Below are positions 39,033 to 46,553 of a DNA stretch of 64,000 nucleotides, piece by piece. Under the pieces are notes generated by a model that worked only from the letters and a program-made list of their open reading frames with translations, had not been told where the DNA came from and did not search any database. The position numbers were made by a program, and so were the translations under genes. The stretch's first letter is position 1. Each line of letters starts with the position of its first letter. This DNA is from Halorientalis sp. LT38 (GTDB taxonomy: Archaea; Halobacteriota; Halobacteria; Halobacteriales; Haloarculaceae), in the NCBI RefSeq assembly GCF_037031225.1, contig NZ_JAYEZN010000001.1:744001-808000 (forward strand). Reading direction: 5' to 3'.

Positions 39033-39356
39033 TCAGGTAGTCTGGCTCCGCTGTTCGATCTCGGCGGAGACGTGGACTTCCTTCGGGATGTCCCGTTCGG
39101 CGACGGAGCGGGCGAACTCGTCGTGACCGACGATCTCGATGGTGCGGGTGTAGACGGTGTAGGCCCAGGGCTGGAAGTGGGCGCCGTCGTCGACGAGGGA
39201 CTTCAGTTGCGGGACACGCTTGTCCACCGGCGGGTGGGGGTGTGGCCCTTTCAGTTCGACGCCCTTGCGCGCGGCGGCCTCCTTGATCGTGGTGACCACG
39301 TCCTCGAGGAGGTGACGATCGCCGCTTTCGAGCGTGAGCTTCGTGACGAACGGCAT
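39033..39356 (-). CDS. uS10/mL48-type small protein
   Basis: A 107-residue protein resembling ribosomal protein S10: PFVTKLTLESGDRHLLEDVV at the start, then HPHPPVDKRVPQLKSLVDDG and the strand YTVYTRTIEIVGHDEF. Haloarchaea carry such paralogues beside the true rpsJ, which normally lies next to the EF-1A gene; that neighbour is absent here, so I do not call it rpsJ. ATG at 39356; the frame extends to 39392. Function outside the ribosome unknown. Confidence 0.8.
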   Translation of the reverse strand: MPFVTKLTLESGDRHLLEDVVTTIKEAAARKGVELKGPHPHPPVDKRVPQLKSLVDDGAHFQPWAYTVYTRTIEIVGHDEFARSVAERDIPKEVHVSAEIEQRSQTT

Positions 39357-39463
39357 ATAGCGGGTCGATGACGCCGACGGGGAAAAACCCATCTCTCTGC
39401 CGCCGGTCGGAACCGGTTCGGGCTCCGATATTCTCTTAAGTACTGGTCGAATATCGTAGGGTA

Positions 39464-39889
39464 ATGATGGAGGCCACGAGCGCGGGAGCCATCCTCTTTC
39501 GCGATACGCGTGGCCGCAGGGAGTACCTCCTGCTCAAGAGCCGCCCCGGCGATTGGGAATTCCCCAAGGGCGGCGTCGAGGGCGAGGAGGAACTCCAGCA
39601 GACTGCGATACGCGAAGTGAAAGAGGAGGCCGGAATCGCGGATTTCCGGCTGTTGGACGGCTTCCGGGAAGATTACGACTACGTGTTCGAAGCGAACGGC
39701 AAGACGATCCACAAGACCGTGCACCTGTTCGTCGCCAAGTCGTTCGAGGCGAGCGCAGAGCTCTCGAACGAACATCGCGACATGCAGTGGCGCGATTACG
39801 ATCAGGCGATAAACACCGTCACGCAGGACGGTCCCCGCGAGATCCTGGAACAGGCCCACGAGTTCCTGAACGAGGAGACGGACTTTTGA
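39464..39889 (+). CDS. Nudix hydrolase, Ap4A-hydrolase-like
   Basis: A 141-residue Nudix enzyme. The full box GX5EX7REUXEEXGU reads GGVEGEE...AIREVKEEAGI (about residues 36-58), preceded by WEFPKGG, and the C-terminal part (EHRDMQWRDYDQAINTV) matches diadenosine tetraphosphate hydrolases. Likely cleaves Ap4A or similar nucleoside polyphosphates in stress response. A CTCTTAAGT element at about -30 before ATG 39464 gives a leaderless start. Divergent from the S10-like gene. Confidence 0.9.
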   Translation: MMEATSAGAILFRDTRGRREYLLLKSRPGDWEFPKGGVEGEEELQQTAIREVKEEAGIADFRLLDGFREDYDYVFEANGKTIHKTVHLFVAKSFEASAELSNEHRDMQWRDYDQAINTVTQDGPREILEQAHEFLNEETDF

Positions 39890-40544: not shown

Positions 40545-41612
40545 GTGACGAGCACCGAGCCGGAGTTCGTCTTCGAGTTGCGGGTCTGTCAGTGGGCCGA
40601 GCGCAACTGGCCGCCCGTCGGCGACGGCGACGCGGACACGGTCCCCCTGATCGCCCGACAGCTCGGGACGAAGTACCGGCGGTGGGACACCGTCGTCGTC
40701 GAGGCCGACCGGGACGCACTCCGAGACCGGGCCGATTTCGGCGCCGAGGGCCTGAACTCCGACCTCCTCCACGTCGTCCGCAACGCTCCGGCCGAGTGGG
40801 CGTGGTATCAGGACGCCCTCCCGGATCCGGGCTACCCCTGGCGGTACGTCCGCGAGGCGGTCCACGAGGCCGCCGACCGCGACCTGATCGAGAAACGGAG
40901 CGGCGCGAACGGCCGGATCGAGTTGCGCCGCTTCCAGCCGTATCCCGACTGGATCGAGCGGATCGTCGCGATCGAGAACAAACCCGACCTCGACCGCGCG
41001 GCGGCGCGGACGCTGGCACCCCAGATCGAACGCGACGTGGCGCTGGGGCTGGCCGACGAGGTCTGGGTGGCCACGGCCCGGACCGGCGGGAGAGTCGAAC
41101 CAGCCCTGCTCGAAGATTTACCTGTGGAAGCCGGCATCCTGACGGTCGATCCGACCGCCAACGGCCCCGCGGGAGACCAGGCGGTCGACGTGGCCTGGAA
41201 TCCCCGAACGCTCGCGCCCGGCGAGCCTGGTACCCGCATCACCGACCGGCCGACAGGCGCCGATCACGACGCCTCGGCGGCCCGGTTCGAGTACGCCGAT
41301 CCGGCGTGGAAGGCGGGCAAGCGCCGCGAGATCGCCGAGCGCGCCTACGAGCGAGGGTGGCGCGCGTACGCGGACACCATGCGTCCGGACTGCAGGCACT
41401 TCCGCCTCCGGACGGAGGCCGGCGACGCGCTCCCCTGGTGTGCGGCCAAGGGCTGTCACCAGACGGCCGGCGAGTGCGCCGGATCGTGCGGGGAGTTCAC
41501 CCCCGAACCGCCGACCTGGCGACAGCGGGACTGGCCGATCGCCGGCGGGCCGGGGAAAGCCCTCAAGCGACTGCTCGAGGGCCAGCGGCGGCGTCGGCGG
41601 CCGGGGCTGTGA
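40545..41612 (+). CDS. DUF5787 protein; possible Fe-S PD-(D/E)XK nuclease
   Basis: A 355-residue protein of a haloarchaeal family of unknown function. I see a literal nuclease-like motif: Pro134-Asp135, then Glu144-x-Lys146 in IVAIENKPD, followed by a helix with Gln160 and the strand DEVWVAT, which is the beta-beta-beta-alpha-beta order of the restriction-endonuclease-like fold. One cysteine lies near the N-terminus (Cys15 in ELRVCQWAERNW) and five at the C-terminus (Cys283, 299, 304, 311, 315). N-terminal plus C-terminal cysteines around a PD-(D/E)XK core is the layout of Cas4/AddB-type [4Fe-4S] nucleases. Start at GTG 40545; the upstream frame runs through the promoter. Basic C-terminal tail suggests DNA binding. 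Confidence 0.7.
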   Translation: MTSTEPEFVFELRVCQWAERNWPPVGDGDADTVPLIARQLGTKYRRWDTVVVEADRDALRDRADFGAEGLNSDLLHVVRNAPAEWAWYQDALPDPGYPWRYVREAVHEAADRDLIEKRSGANGRIELRRFQPYPDWIERIVAIENKPDLDRAAARTLAPQIERDVALGLADEVWVATARTGGRVEPALLEDLPVEAGILTVDPTANGPAGDQAVDVAWNPRTLAPGEPGTRITDRPTGADHDASAARFEYADPAWKAGKRREIAERAYERGWRAYADTMRPDCRHFRLRTEAGDALPWCAAKGCHQTAGECAGSCGEFTPEPPTWRQRDWPIAGGPGKALKRLLEGQRRRRRPGL

Positions 41613-41928: not shown

Positions 41929-42405
41929 TCAGTCGAGTTCCTCGACGGTGAACTCCTCGCGAGCGACGGCCAGGCGGTAGGTGGGGACCGTGCGCCTGAT
42001 CCGCTCGGCGATCCCCTTATCTGAGAGGCTCCGGAGCGCCGACCGCACGTCGTCGATCTCGGGGTCCTCGCCGGTCTCGCGGAGGTCGTGCAGGACCGAG
42101 ACGACGCTCTGGGAGCGCTCCTCGGGGCCGGCGAGGACCTCGATCACGGCGGCCTGCAGCGGCGGGACGCGGACGATCCGTTCGCCTTCGGGGTCGTCGG
42201 CGCCGACCATCGCGTTGGCGGCCTCCGTCGCGCAGATGAGGCTGTTCTCGTCGCGGTAGTAGTAGTCCTTGAGTTCGTCCTCGAGGTACTGGTGGACGTC
42301 GCTGCCGCTCTCCAGGTCCCACCTGTCCTGGAGCTCGGCGTTCTTCGTCGGCTGGAGCGCGACGACGTCCGCGAGTCGCTCGCGGGCCTCGTCCGAAAGC
42401 GTCAT
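41929..42405 (-). CDS. DUF5797-like winged-helix protein
   Basis: A 158-residue protein beginning MTLSDEARERLADVVALQPT. The N-terminal part (LQDRWDLESGSDVHQYLEDE, YYYRDENSLICATEAA) matches a haloarchaeal family I remember as DUF5797. The C-terminal half (VVSVLHDLRETGEDPEIDDV then RSALRSLSDKGIAERIRRTV) has the helix-turn-helix-wing pattern of a winged helix. Likely a transcriptional regulator; target unknown. Divergent from the enoyl-CoA hydratase gene. Confidence 0.75.
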   Translation of the reverse strand: MTLSDEARERLADVVALQPTKNAELQDRWDLESGSDVHQYLEDELKDYYYRDENSLICATEAANAMVGADDPEGERIVRVPPLQAAVIEVLAGPEERSQSVVSVLHDLRETGEDPEIDDVRSALRSLSDKGIAERIRRTVPTYRLAVAREEFTVEELD

Positions 42406-44304: not shown

Positions 44305-44811
44305 TCAGTCCTCGAGCGACGCGAGGGTCTCCCCCACATCCGCCCAGTGGCTCCCCTTCCAGAAGCACTGCTCGCAGTCGCGACAGCGCCAGACCGGCGT
44401 CTCGGCTGGATCGGGCGCGTACCCCGGCGTGGATTCGTCGTCGGTGAGGGGCTCGACGACGCCGTTGCACCGGCTACAGCGGACCGGGCGGTCGCCGAGT
44501 TCGAGTCTGAAGCCGGCGTCGCGGAGTTCCCGGAGCTGTTCGACCGGCTCCCGTTCGGTGAGCAGCACCGAATCGTCCGTGCGCGCGGCGAGGCCGCGAT
44601 CCCTGGTCAGCAGGGTGCGGCCCTCCGCCCGCGAGAGGGCCAGAATCCGGTCGTCGGCCTCCAGATCGCGGTCCAGCGCGTAGACCGCGTCGAAGCCGCA
44701 CATCCGCAGGTAGGTCGCGAGTTTCCCGAGCATCACGTCCAGCACGAGCCGATCGCCGGATCGGACCGGTTCGGAGTTTTGCCCCCCAGCAGCACCGCTG
44801 TCCCGATCCAT
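44305..44811 (-). CDS. Mut7-C RNAse-domain protein
   Basis: A 168-residue PIN-fold protein with a zinc ribbon. The PIN-like half starts LVLDVMLGKLATYLRMCGFD and contains LLTRDRGLAAR; the ribbon has CSRC and CRDC, ending FWKGSHWADV. Its ATG overlaps the last base of the PolX stop codon (TGATG), so the two are translated from one mRNA. The family is suspected to be RNA or DNA processing; pairing with PolX hints at a repair link. Confidence 0.85.
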   Translation of the reverse strand: MDRDSGAAGGQNSEPVRSGDRLVLDVMLGKLATYLRMCGFDAVYALDRDLEADDRILALSRAEGRTLLTRDRGLAARTDDSVLLTEREPVEQLRELRDAGFRLELGDRPVRCSRCNGVVEPLTDDESTPGYAPDPAETPVWRCRDCEQCFWKGSHWADVGETLASLED

Positions 44812-46553
44812 CACAGCCCCAGGAAGTCGCGCAAGCCGTCGGCGTCTCGCGTGTTGATCACGTCCCCGGCTTCGGCCCAGCCGCGGCGGGCTGTGTGCAC
44901 GCCGTAGCGAACGTACGCGAAGGTCCCCGGCTGGTGGGCGTCCGTGTCGATGGCGATGGACGCCCCGGCCTCGATGGCGGGTTTGACCCTCGCGCCGTCG
45001 AGGTCCAGCCGCCGCGGATCGCTGTTGACCTCCAGGGCGGTCCCGGCGTCGGCGGCCGCCGCGGCCAGCCGTTCGACGTCGACGTCCAGGCCGCCGCGCT
45101 GGTTGAGCATTCGTCCCGTCGGGTGACCCAGCACGTTCACCTCCGGGTGTTCGACGGCCGTCACCAGTCGGTCGGTCCCGTCGCCGTCGAGGCCGGCGTG
45201 GGGCGAGGCGACGACAAGATCCAGTTCGGCGAGCACGTCGTCGCCCACGGAGATCGAGCCGTCGGCCCCGATATTGGCCTCGACGCCGGCGAACAGGTCG
45301 ACCGCGACCTCGTCGTCGACCGCCCGGATGGCGTCGATCTGCTCGCGCAACTCGTCGTCGTCGAGGCCCACGCCGCCGACCATCCCCGGGCCGGTGGCGT
45401 GGTCGGTGATCGCCAGGTAGTCGTGGCCGAATTCCGCGGCGGCCTCGGCCATCTCCCGGATGGTGTTGCCCCCGTCGGACCACTCGGTGTGGGTGTGGAG
45501 ATCGCCGCGGACCTCGCTCTCGGCGAGCAGGTCGGGGAGATCGCCGTTCGCCGCGGCGTCGATCTCGCCGCGGTTCTCCCGGAGTTCCGGCGGCATCCAC
45601 GGCAGGTCGAGGGCCTCGTACATCTCCGCCTCCGTCGCGCCACCGACGCGCTCGCCGGCGCGCTGGTCCGCGTCCGGATCGTCCACGGCCGAGACGTCGA
45701 AGATACCGTACTCGTTCATCTTCAGGTCGCGGTCGATGGCGCGGTTCCGGAGGGCGACGTTGTGGTCCTTGCTACCCGTGAAGTACTGGAGGGCGGCGCC
45801 GAACTCCGGGGGATCGACCACCCGGAGGTCGACGCGGAAGTCGTCGACCCGGAGGCTGGCCTTCTTCGTTCCCGCCTCGATCACGGTGTCGGCGGCGTCC
45901 CAGCCGGTGAAGCCGTCGATCACCGCGTCGGGGTCGTCGCTGCCGACCAGCACGTCCACGTCGCCTATCGTCGGCCGCCAGCGCCGGATCGACCCCGCGA
46001 GTTCGACCTCCCCCACCGCGTCGACGCCGGCCAGGTGTTCACGAACGCGATCGCCGTACGGTCGGGCCTCGCCGAGCAGTTCCCGCTCGTGGGCCTCGCG
46101 GGCGAACTCGATCCCCTCGAGGATGTTCTGTTCGGTCTTCTCGCCGAAGCCGGAGATCGCCTGGATCTCGCCGGCCTCGGCGGCGCCTTCGAGGTCGTCG
46201 AGCGTCTCGATCCCCAGTTCCTCGTAGAGCGTTCCGACGGTCTTCGGGCCGACGCCCTCGACGCTCGTGAGCGCGGCCATGTCGACCGGCAGTTGGCTCC
46301 GGAGTTCGTCCAGTTCCTCGATTCCGCCGGTCTCGACGTACTCGACGATCTTCGAGGCGATGGCGTCGCCGACCCCCTCGATCTCCTGGACGCCGTCCTC
46401 GCCGTCGGTCGCGAGGTGTTCGATCGCGGCGGGGCTGGCCCGGACGTTCTCGGCCGCGCGCCGGTACGCGCGGGGCTTGTACTCGACGTCTCTGGCCTCC
46501 AGCAGGTCGGCGAACTCCTCCAGGAGGCTCGCCACCTCCGCGTTGCGGCTCAT
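44811..46553 (-). CDS. polX: Family X DNA polymerase with PHP domain
   Basis: Gap-filling repair polymerase of 580 residues. Order: N-terminal 8-kDa-like helical domain (LLEARDVEYKPRAYRRAAEN), helix-hairpin-helix motifs (IEGVGDAIASKIVEYVE, SVEGVGPKTVGTLYEELG), the palm with RRWRPTIGDVDVLV, and a C-terminal PHP phosphoesterase domain starting RGDLHTHTEWSDGGNT and DYLAITDHATG. The PHP part can give 3'-5' exonuclease or phosphatase activity. First gene of the polX-Mut7C operon. Confidence 0.95.
   Translation of the reverse strand: MSRNAEVASLLEEFADLLEARDVEYKPRAYRRAAENVRASPAAIEHLATDGEDGVQEIEGVGDAIASKIVEYVETGGIEELDELRSQLPVDMAALTSVEGVGPKTVGTLYEELGIETLDDLEGAAEAGEIQAISGFGEKTEQNILEGIEFAREAHERELLGEARPYGDRVREHLAGVDAVGEVELAGSIRRWRPTIGDVDVLVGSDDPDAVIDGFTGWDAADTVIEAGTKKASLRVDDFRVDLRVVDPPEFGAALQYFTGSKDHNVALRNRAIDRDLKMNEYGIFDVSAVDDPDADQRAGERVGGATEAEMYEALDLPWMPPELRENRGEIDAAANGDLPDLLAESEVRGDLHTHTEWSDGGNTIREMAEAAAEFGHDYLAITDHATGPGMVGGVGLDDDELREQIDAIRAVDDEVAVDLFAGVEANIGADGSISVGDDVLAELDLVVASPHAGLDGDGTDRLVTAVEHPEVNVLGHPTGRMLNQRGGLDVDVERLAAAAADAGTALEVNSDPRRLDLDGARVKPAIEAGASIAIDTDAHQPGTFAYVRYGVHTARRGWAEAGDVINTRDADGLRDFLGL

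Follow-up and report, generated by a model that had tools for sequence, protein, structure and literature searches.

The window analysed here, a stretch of 64,000 nt from the 3.58 Mb genome of the haloarchaeon Halorientalis sp. LT38, contains a gene for a protein of the domain family DUF5787, which we call copy A; a paralog, copy B, lies elsewhere in the same genome. We put at roughly two in three the probability that DUF5787 proteins are haloarchaea-specific, MmcB-like endonucleases of the PD-(D/E)XK superfamily, with a winged helix inserted between motifs II and III, a C-terminal module of four cysteines (Cys4) and an ancient duplication into the A and B lines. The pair would probably act as chromosomal replication or repair endonucleases, copy B being tethered to PCNA; the nuclease activity, PCNA binding, metal, substrate and A-B partnership that this entails are what we infer. 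None of the papers searched mentions DUF5787.

Copy A is a real gene of this family. Its open reading frame (ORF) starts with GTG, encodes 355 aa followed by a stop codon, and occupies the very positions at which an earlier note on this DNA had placed a DUF5787 protein; it matches PF19100 (DUF5787) with 394.8 bits (E 3.5e-118) over residues 35-320. PF19100 is the sole Pfam family matched up to E 1, with no match to PF06319, PF01930, NucS or Nre, and nothing useful came from NCBIfam, PADLOC or PHROGs, the last two giving no match. Searches of PDB sequences by phmmer and by profile yielded no related solved structure at significance; phmmer matches to AssT and L44e and the profile matches to PDB entries were not significant and were discarded. 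The nearest named relatives of the gene, 81-84% identical, belong to Halorientalis species.

Residue conservation was assessed over 84 copy-A orthologues and 20 copy-B sequences, the latter number later being widened to 42. A combined alignment of 79 sequences from both paralogs, which are approximately 33% identical to each other, also served as input to AlphaFold2. Conserved throughout or nearly so in the 84 and 20 sequences are Glu7, Glu11, Glu19, Arg38-Gln39, Gly41, Arg45, Asp48, Tyr133-Pro134, Trp136, Glu144-Asn-Lys146-Pro-Asp148, Gln160, Asp164, Asp171 and Cys283/299/311/315, with Glu144, Lys146, Gln160 and the four cysteines invariant. In the wider copy-B set, Asp48, Glu144, Gln160 and each of the four cysteines occur in 42/42 proteins and Lys146 in 41/42. 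The earlier note had read a literal PD...ExK motif in copy A, consisting of Pro134-Asp135, Glu144, Lys146 and Gln160. Its second part stands, but the "PD" was misassigned: Asp135 varies among the 84 copy-A proteins (D 67, E 9, A 4, S 2, N 1, R 1) and was rejected as catalytic for that reason. On the alignment, Pro134-Asp135 is a coincidence and the predicted motif II aspartate is Asp48.

The AlphaFold2 model of copy A (mean predicted local distance difference test, pLDDT, 87.5; predicted template modelling score, pTM, 0.88) has the order alpha-beta-beta-[winged helix inserted]-beta-alpha-beta, with core elements a1 7-21, b1 32-41, b2 46-55, b3 137-145, a2 151-167, b4 172-178 and b5 197-201. 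The predicted winged helix comprises helices 72-80, 88-91 and 99-111 and strands 115-119 and 125-129. Whole domains may be inserted into the PD-(D/E)XK core as defined previously (PMC1913061). Compared with that definition, the model places a motif I acid, Glu11 (or Glu7 or Glu19), in helix 7-21, motif II Asp48 in strand 2, motif III Glu144-x-Lys146 in strand 3 and motif IV Gln160/Asp164 in helix 151-167, so that the candidate active-site set Glu11, Asp48, Glu144-x-Lys146 and Gln160 falls in PD-(D/E)XK order. The model of copy B resembles it in layout but is less confident (pLDDT 78).

Foldseek searches with the copy-A model agreed with AlphaFold2 in predicting a PD-(D/E)XK core, the restriction-endonuclease-like fold that the earlier note had expected. 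Against viral models (BFVD), MmcB-family DNA repair proteins appeared at ranks 1, 4, 10 and 12 (best E 3.2e-4, probability 1.00), and against the PDB the type IIS endonuclease PaqCI (probability 0.97) was followed by winged-helix proteins. Phage MmcB proteins, found by length and tblastn, carry ECDLLAI..IEVKISRADL and then a P..aGl segment, in the same order as WDTVVVE..IENKPDL..lPveaGil in DUF5787. As far as models can tell, the nearest structural relatives of DUF5787 are MmcB DNA-repair nucleases and not Cas4. The dominance of winged-helix domains among the PDB fold matches would also suit a nuclease fold that has lost catalysis and now serves, by way of its winged helix, as a DNA-binding regulator. 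A dead enzyme would not need its active-site residues, yet these rank with the best-conserved positions of either paralog, and we consider such a regulator quite improbable.

DUF5787 was detected in every genome of the same GTDB family (116/116), usually in two copies, and in 289/292 genomes of the same class, nearly always in two. In the rest of the phylum the Pfam cut-off was never reached; those sub-threshold matches to the C-terminal part of PF19100 in methanogens that were inspected proved to be methionyl-tRNA synthetase zinc knuckles, a coincidence of cysteine pattern. The three genomes of the class without the family (G134, G291 and G346) still gave none with a wider profile. Two of the three belong to one family, which suggests either lineages that split off before DUF5787 arose or loss. 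When 59 A and 40 B sequences, drawn from many families, were placed in a tree, A and B formed separate clades (each 100/100). Given these two clades, the simplest history is a single duplication before the haloarchaeal families split and radiated, with both copies kept.

A nuclease-type protein outside CRISPR, conserved in haloarchaea, had been proposed in the earlier note as a repair or defence component. As a prediction, such a protein is what we find, and a part in repair is plausible; the defence half of the proposal fares poorly. A restriction or antiviral nuclease would explain a PD-(D/E)XK fold combined with a winged helix and a best PDB match to a type IIS restriction enzyme. It is nevertheless very improbable, as DUF5787 is near-universal, two-copy and vertically inherited, is missed by the PADLOC and PHROGs searches, has no methyltransferase neighbours and no CRISPR link in the conserved context of the A and B loci, was not found in 50,697 phage records or in viral contigs, and turned up on a single plasmid record (Natronorubrum, 828 kb).

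The C-termini of the two paralogs differ. All 42 copy-B proteins examined end in RRQ[SA]GLDRF-x or something very near to it, which is a canonical PCNA-interacting (PIP) box, and a terminal PIP box was found in 0/84 copy-A proteins. In its place copy A carries the basic tail listed in Table 1, which is just as well conserved. By chance such an ending occurs in approximately 1% of neighbouring ORFs (the count of 21/871 includes copy-B genes). Haloarchaeal PIP boxes have been described as QxxLxxFx (PMC7776575), and in the Halorientalis genome FEN1 ends in QTGLDRWT and copy B in QSGLDRWG. From this motif we infer that copy B is fastened to PCNA through its terminal box.

The earlier note had likened copy A to Fe-S nucleases such as Cas4 and AddB, on the basis of Cys15 and five C-terminal cysteines. 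All of these are literally present (Cys283, 299, 304, 311 and 315 at the C-terminus), and the four invariant ones are likely to form a metal site, judging from their conservation. Cys304 is variable among copy-A proteins (R 45, C 30), and Cys15, found in 83/84 of them with one gap, is less constant at the equivalent position of the 42 copy-B proteins (C 36, S 4, A 1, gap 1). The residues singled out for a conservation check therefore fall into two groups, with Glu144, Lys146, Gln160 and four C-terminal cysteines holding and Asp135, Cys304 and copy-B Cys15 not. Because Cys304 varies and Cys15 is swapped for Ser or Ala in some paralogs, a Cas4-type 1+3 cysteine cluster appears unlikely, and a Cys4 Fe-S cluster that does without Cys15 is possible. 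Likeness to the methionyl-tRNA synthetase knuckle (E-C-x3-C) hints at possible zinc binding by the C-x3-C pair. One such knuckle (ECDQGC) in a methanogen synthetase, L110 3498-5495 on the minus strand, matches the C-terminal DUF5787 profile weakly.

In a Cas4/AddB-type enzyme, Cys15 and three C-terminal cysteines would hold a [4Fe-4S] cluster that fastens one end of the nuclease domain to the other. Both groups have the fold of the superfamily, with cysteines close to either terminus, and Cys15 is nearly constant in copy A. On the other side, hhalign detected no profile similarity between DUF5787 and 30 haloarchaeal Cas4s (P 0.29-0.47), and a PF01930 search of this genome gave no Cas4 match. 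The spacing C-x15-C-x11-C-x3-C differs from the C-x2-C-x4-9-C of 30/30 haloarchaeal Cas4s, and in the AlphaFold2 model some 80 residues, a long helix among them, separate the nuclease core from the C-terminal cysteines. These four cysteines never vary, whereas Cys15 is Ser or Ala in 5/42 copy-B proteins, and the loci have no CRISPR context. A relationship to Cas4 was rejected on the profile results and the missing PF01930 match; since the paralogue can do without the N-terminal cysteine, the cysteines are spaced differently and profile similarity is lacking, the Cas4-like Fe-S reading is unlikely. The fold comparison that the earlier note had proposed led instead to MmcB-like proteins, PaqCI and winged-helix domains. 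Coordinates of the features are collected in Table 1.

Table 1. Features of the DUF5787 genes and their surroundings (window positions unless another record is named)
Feature	Position	Strand	Basis or remark
DUF5787 copy A, predicted PD-(D/E)XK nuclease, 355 aa	40545..41612	+	ORF, PF19100 match, AlphaFold2 model
Predicted nuclease core, residues 7-201	40563..41147	+	AlphaFold2 secondary structure; Foldseek MmcB-like E 3.2e-4, PaqCI probability 0.97
Glu11, candidate motif I acid, helix a1	40575..40577	+	conserved in both paralogs; Glu7, Glu19 equally so
Cys15	40587..40589	+	conserved across copy A but not copy B (Ser/Ala in 5/42)
Asp48, predicted motif II catalytic aspartate, strand b2, RRWDTVVVE	40686..40688	+	invariant in 79-sequence alignment; 42/42 copy B
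Predicted winged-helix domain between motifs II and III, ~residues 64-131	40734..40937	+	AlphaFold2; Foldseek CodY, MarR, Fur, TFIIE
YPDW133-136, "PD" of the earlier note	40941..40952	+	Y, P, W invariant; Asp135 variable
Glu144-Asn145-Lys146, predicted motif III (ExK), end of strand b3	40974..40982	+	84/84 copy A, 20/20 copy B
Gln160, predicted motif IV, helix a2 (invariant Asp164 also)	41022..41024	+	residue conservation
Four-cysteine module Cys283, 299, 311, 315 (C-x15-C-x11-C-x3-C), putative Zn or Fe-S site	41391..41489	+	84/84 and 42/42
Copy-A-specific conserved basic tail WPIxGGPGxxxxRLLxxxRRRRRPG, predicted helix 338-350, no PIP box	41532..41609	+	alignment, AlphaFold2 model
Small ribosomal-protein-S10-like gene (PF00338, 62 bits)	39033-39392	-	near copy A in 15/31 loci
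NUDIX hydrolase gene upstream of copy A	39464..39889	+	21/31 loci; same strand in 19/19 measurable
DUF5797 gene, convergent with copy A	41929..42405	-	25/31 loci
DUF5787 copy B, same genome	C1:2514673-2515470 (L070 7893-8924)	-	PIP box QSGLDRWG; adjoins AAA ATPase and metallo-beta-lactamase genes

The most stable neighbour of copy A is DUF5797, another uncharacterised haloarchaeal family, and the S10-like gene on the other side is possibly an S10 paralogue. The region also holds DNA-metabolism genes: a few kb downstream of copy A lie genes for a Mut7-C RNase-domain protein (44308-44760, minus strand) and a PolX-type DNA polymerase with a PHP domain (44811-46553, minus strand). Copy B adjoins housekeeping genes (eIF2-gamma, Rpb7, DUF359, S24e, TsaD), with the eIF2-gamma / PIN / Rpb7 / DUF359 group in 15-16/20 loci, an AAA ATPase in 16/20 and a metallo-beta-lactamase gene in 11/20. 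A gene for an RNA-ligase-domain protein (PF09414; L070 13237-14082, minus strand) lies a few genes from copy B. An RNA-processing nuclease, rather than a DNA enzyme, would fit the translation and transcription genes and the PIN-domain gene beside copy B, as well as the NUDIX and S10-like genes near copy A. However, both the inserted winged helix and copy B's PCNA box indicate a DNA enzyme, and the neighbours of copy B are transcribed divergently or convergently and form no operon with it; an RNA-processing nuclease is, in our estimate, unlikely.

Several points weigh against MmcB-like repair endonucleases. The hhalign comparison of DUF5787 with MmcB was at most suggestive, giving P 0.013 over one short stretch (17-31 columns), and no significant profile link connects DUF5787 to any known nuclease. 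TM-scores over the whole chain are low (0.28 by query length); a multidomain query is expected to score so, but such values are no proof. Moreover, the copy-A gene itself is without a PIP box, and the gene context of DUF5787 does not point to repair.

The proposed role leans on analogies with MmcB and NreA. MmcB (PF06319/DUF1052, COG5321) is an SOS-regulated PD-(D/E)XK endonuclease that protects Caulobacter from mitomycin C (PMC9578287). It shares with DUF5787 the core, the motif II Asp, ExK followed by a D-L/F element, a beta-strand and "lPxxaGl". Unlike DUF5787, it is a bacterial or phage protein of ~160-190 aa with adjacent motifs II and III, no winged-helix insert and no Cys4 module, and DUF5787 gives no PF06319 match. 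In Haloferax, mitomycin C repair requires both NreA, a PCNA-interacting protein, and the PIP motif of that protein (PMC4929162). Nre proteins resemble DUF5787 in being archaea-specific, in their C-terminal PIP box and in the Cys4 site of many members, alongside their repair role in Haloferax, but they have no recognised nuclease motif, and copy A does not match them in Pfam. NucS/EndoMS, a PCNA-binding RecB-like nuclease (PMC4929162), combines PD-(D/E)XK with a C-terminal PIP box, as does copy B; its N-terminal domain is OB/Sm-like and its nuclease C-terminal, whereas in DUF5787 the nuclease with its winged-helix insert is N-terminal, and copy A does not match NucS. The putative nucleases of COG5482 (PMC1189080) also join PD-(D/E)XK to a winged helix, which in their case is C-terminal and not inserted in the core.

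If DUF5787 proteins are MmcB-like endonucleases, the winged helix and Cys4 module may recognise a DNA structure or lesion, Glu11, Asp48 and Glu144 would bind Mg2+, and Lys146 would position the water that cuts the strand. PCNA would deliver copy B to replication and repair sites, and copy A might work free or as its partner. More tentatively, DUF5787-A and -B could constitute a haloarchaea-specific, PCNA-linked repair endonuclease system, possibly a heterodimer, of new architecture, ancestral to most haloarchaea and doing a core job. That job would be one, such as crosslink, mismatch or replication-fork processing, as yet without an assigned enzyme in haloarchaea. Within the PD-(D/E)XK superfamily it would be unusual for a winged helix to divide the nuclease core and for a Cys4 cluster to follow that core. 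Haloferax volcanii, a genetically tractable species, also matches the family, which makes the role of DUF5787 directly addressable. Almost all haloarchaea have retained this predicted nuclease in duplicate, with a replication-clamp tag on one copy. It has apparently gone unstudied and may close a gap in haloarchaeal repair.
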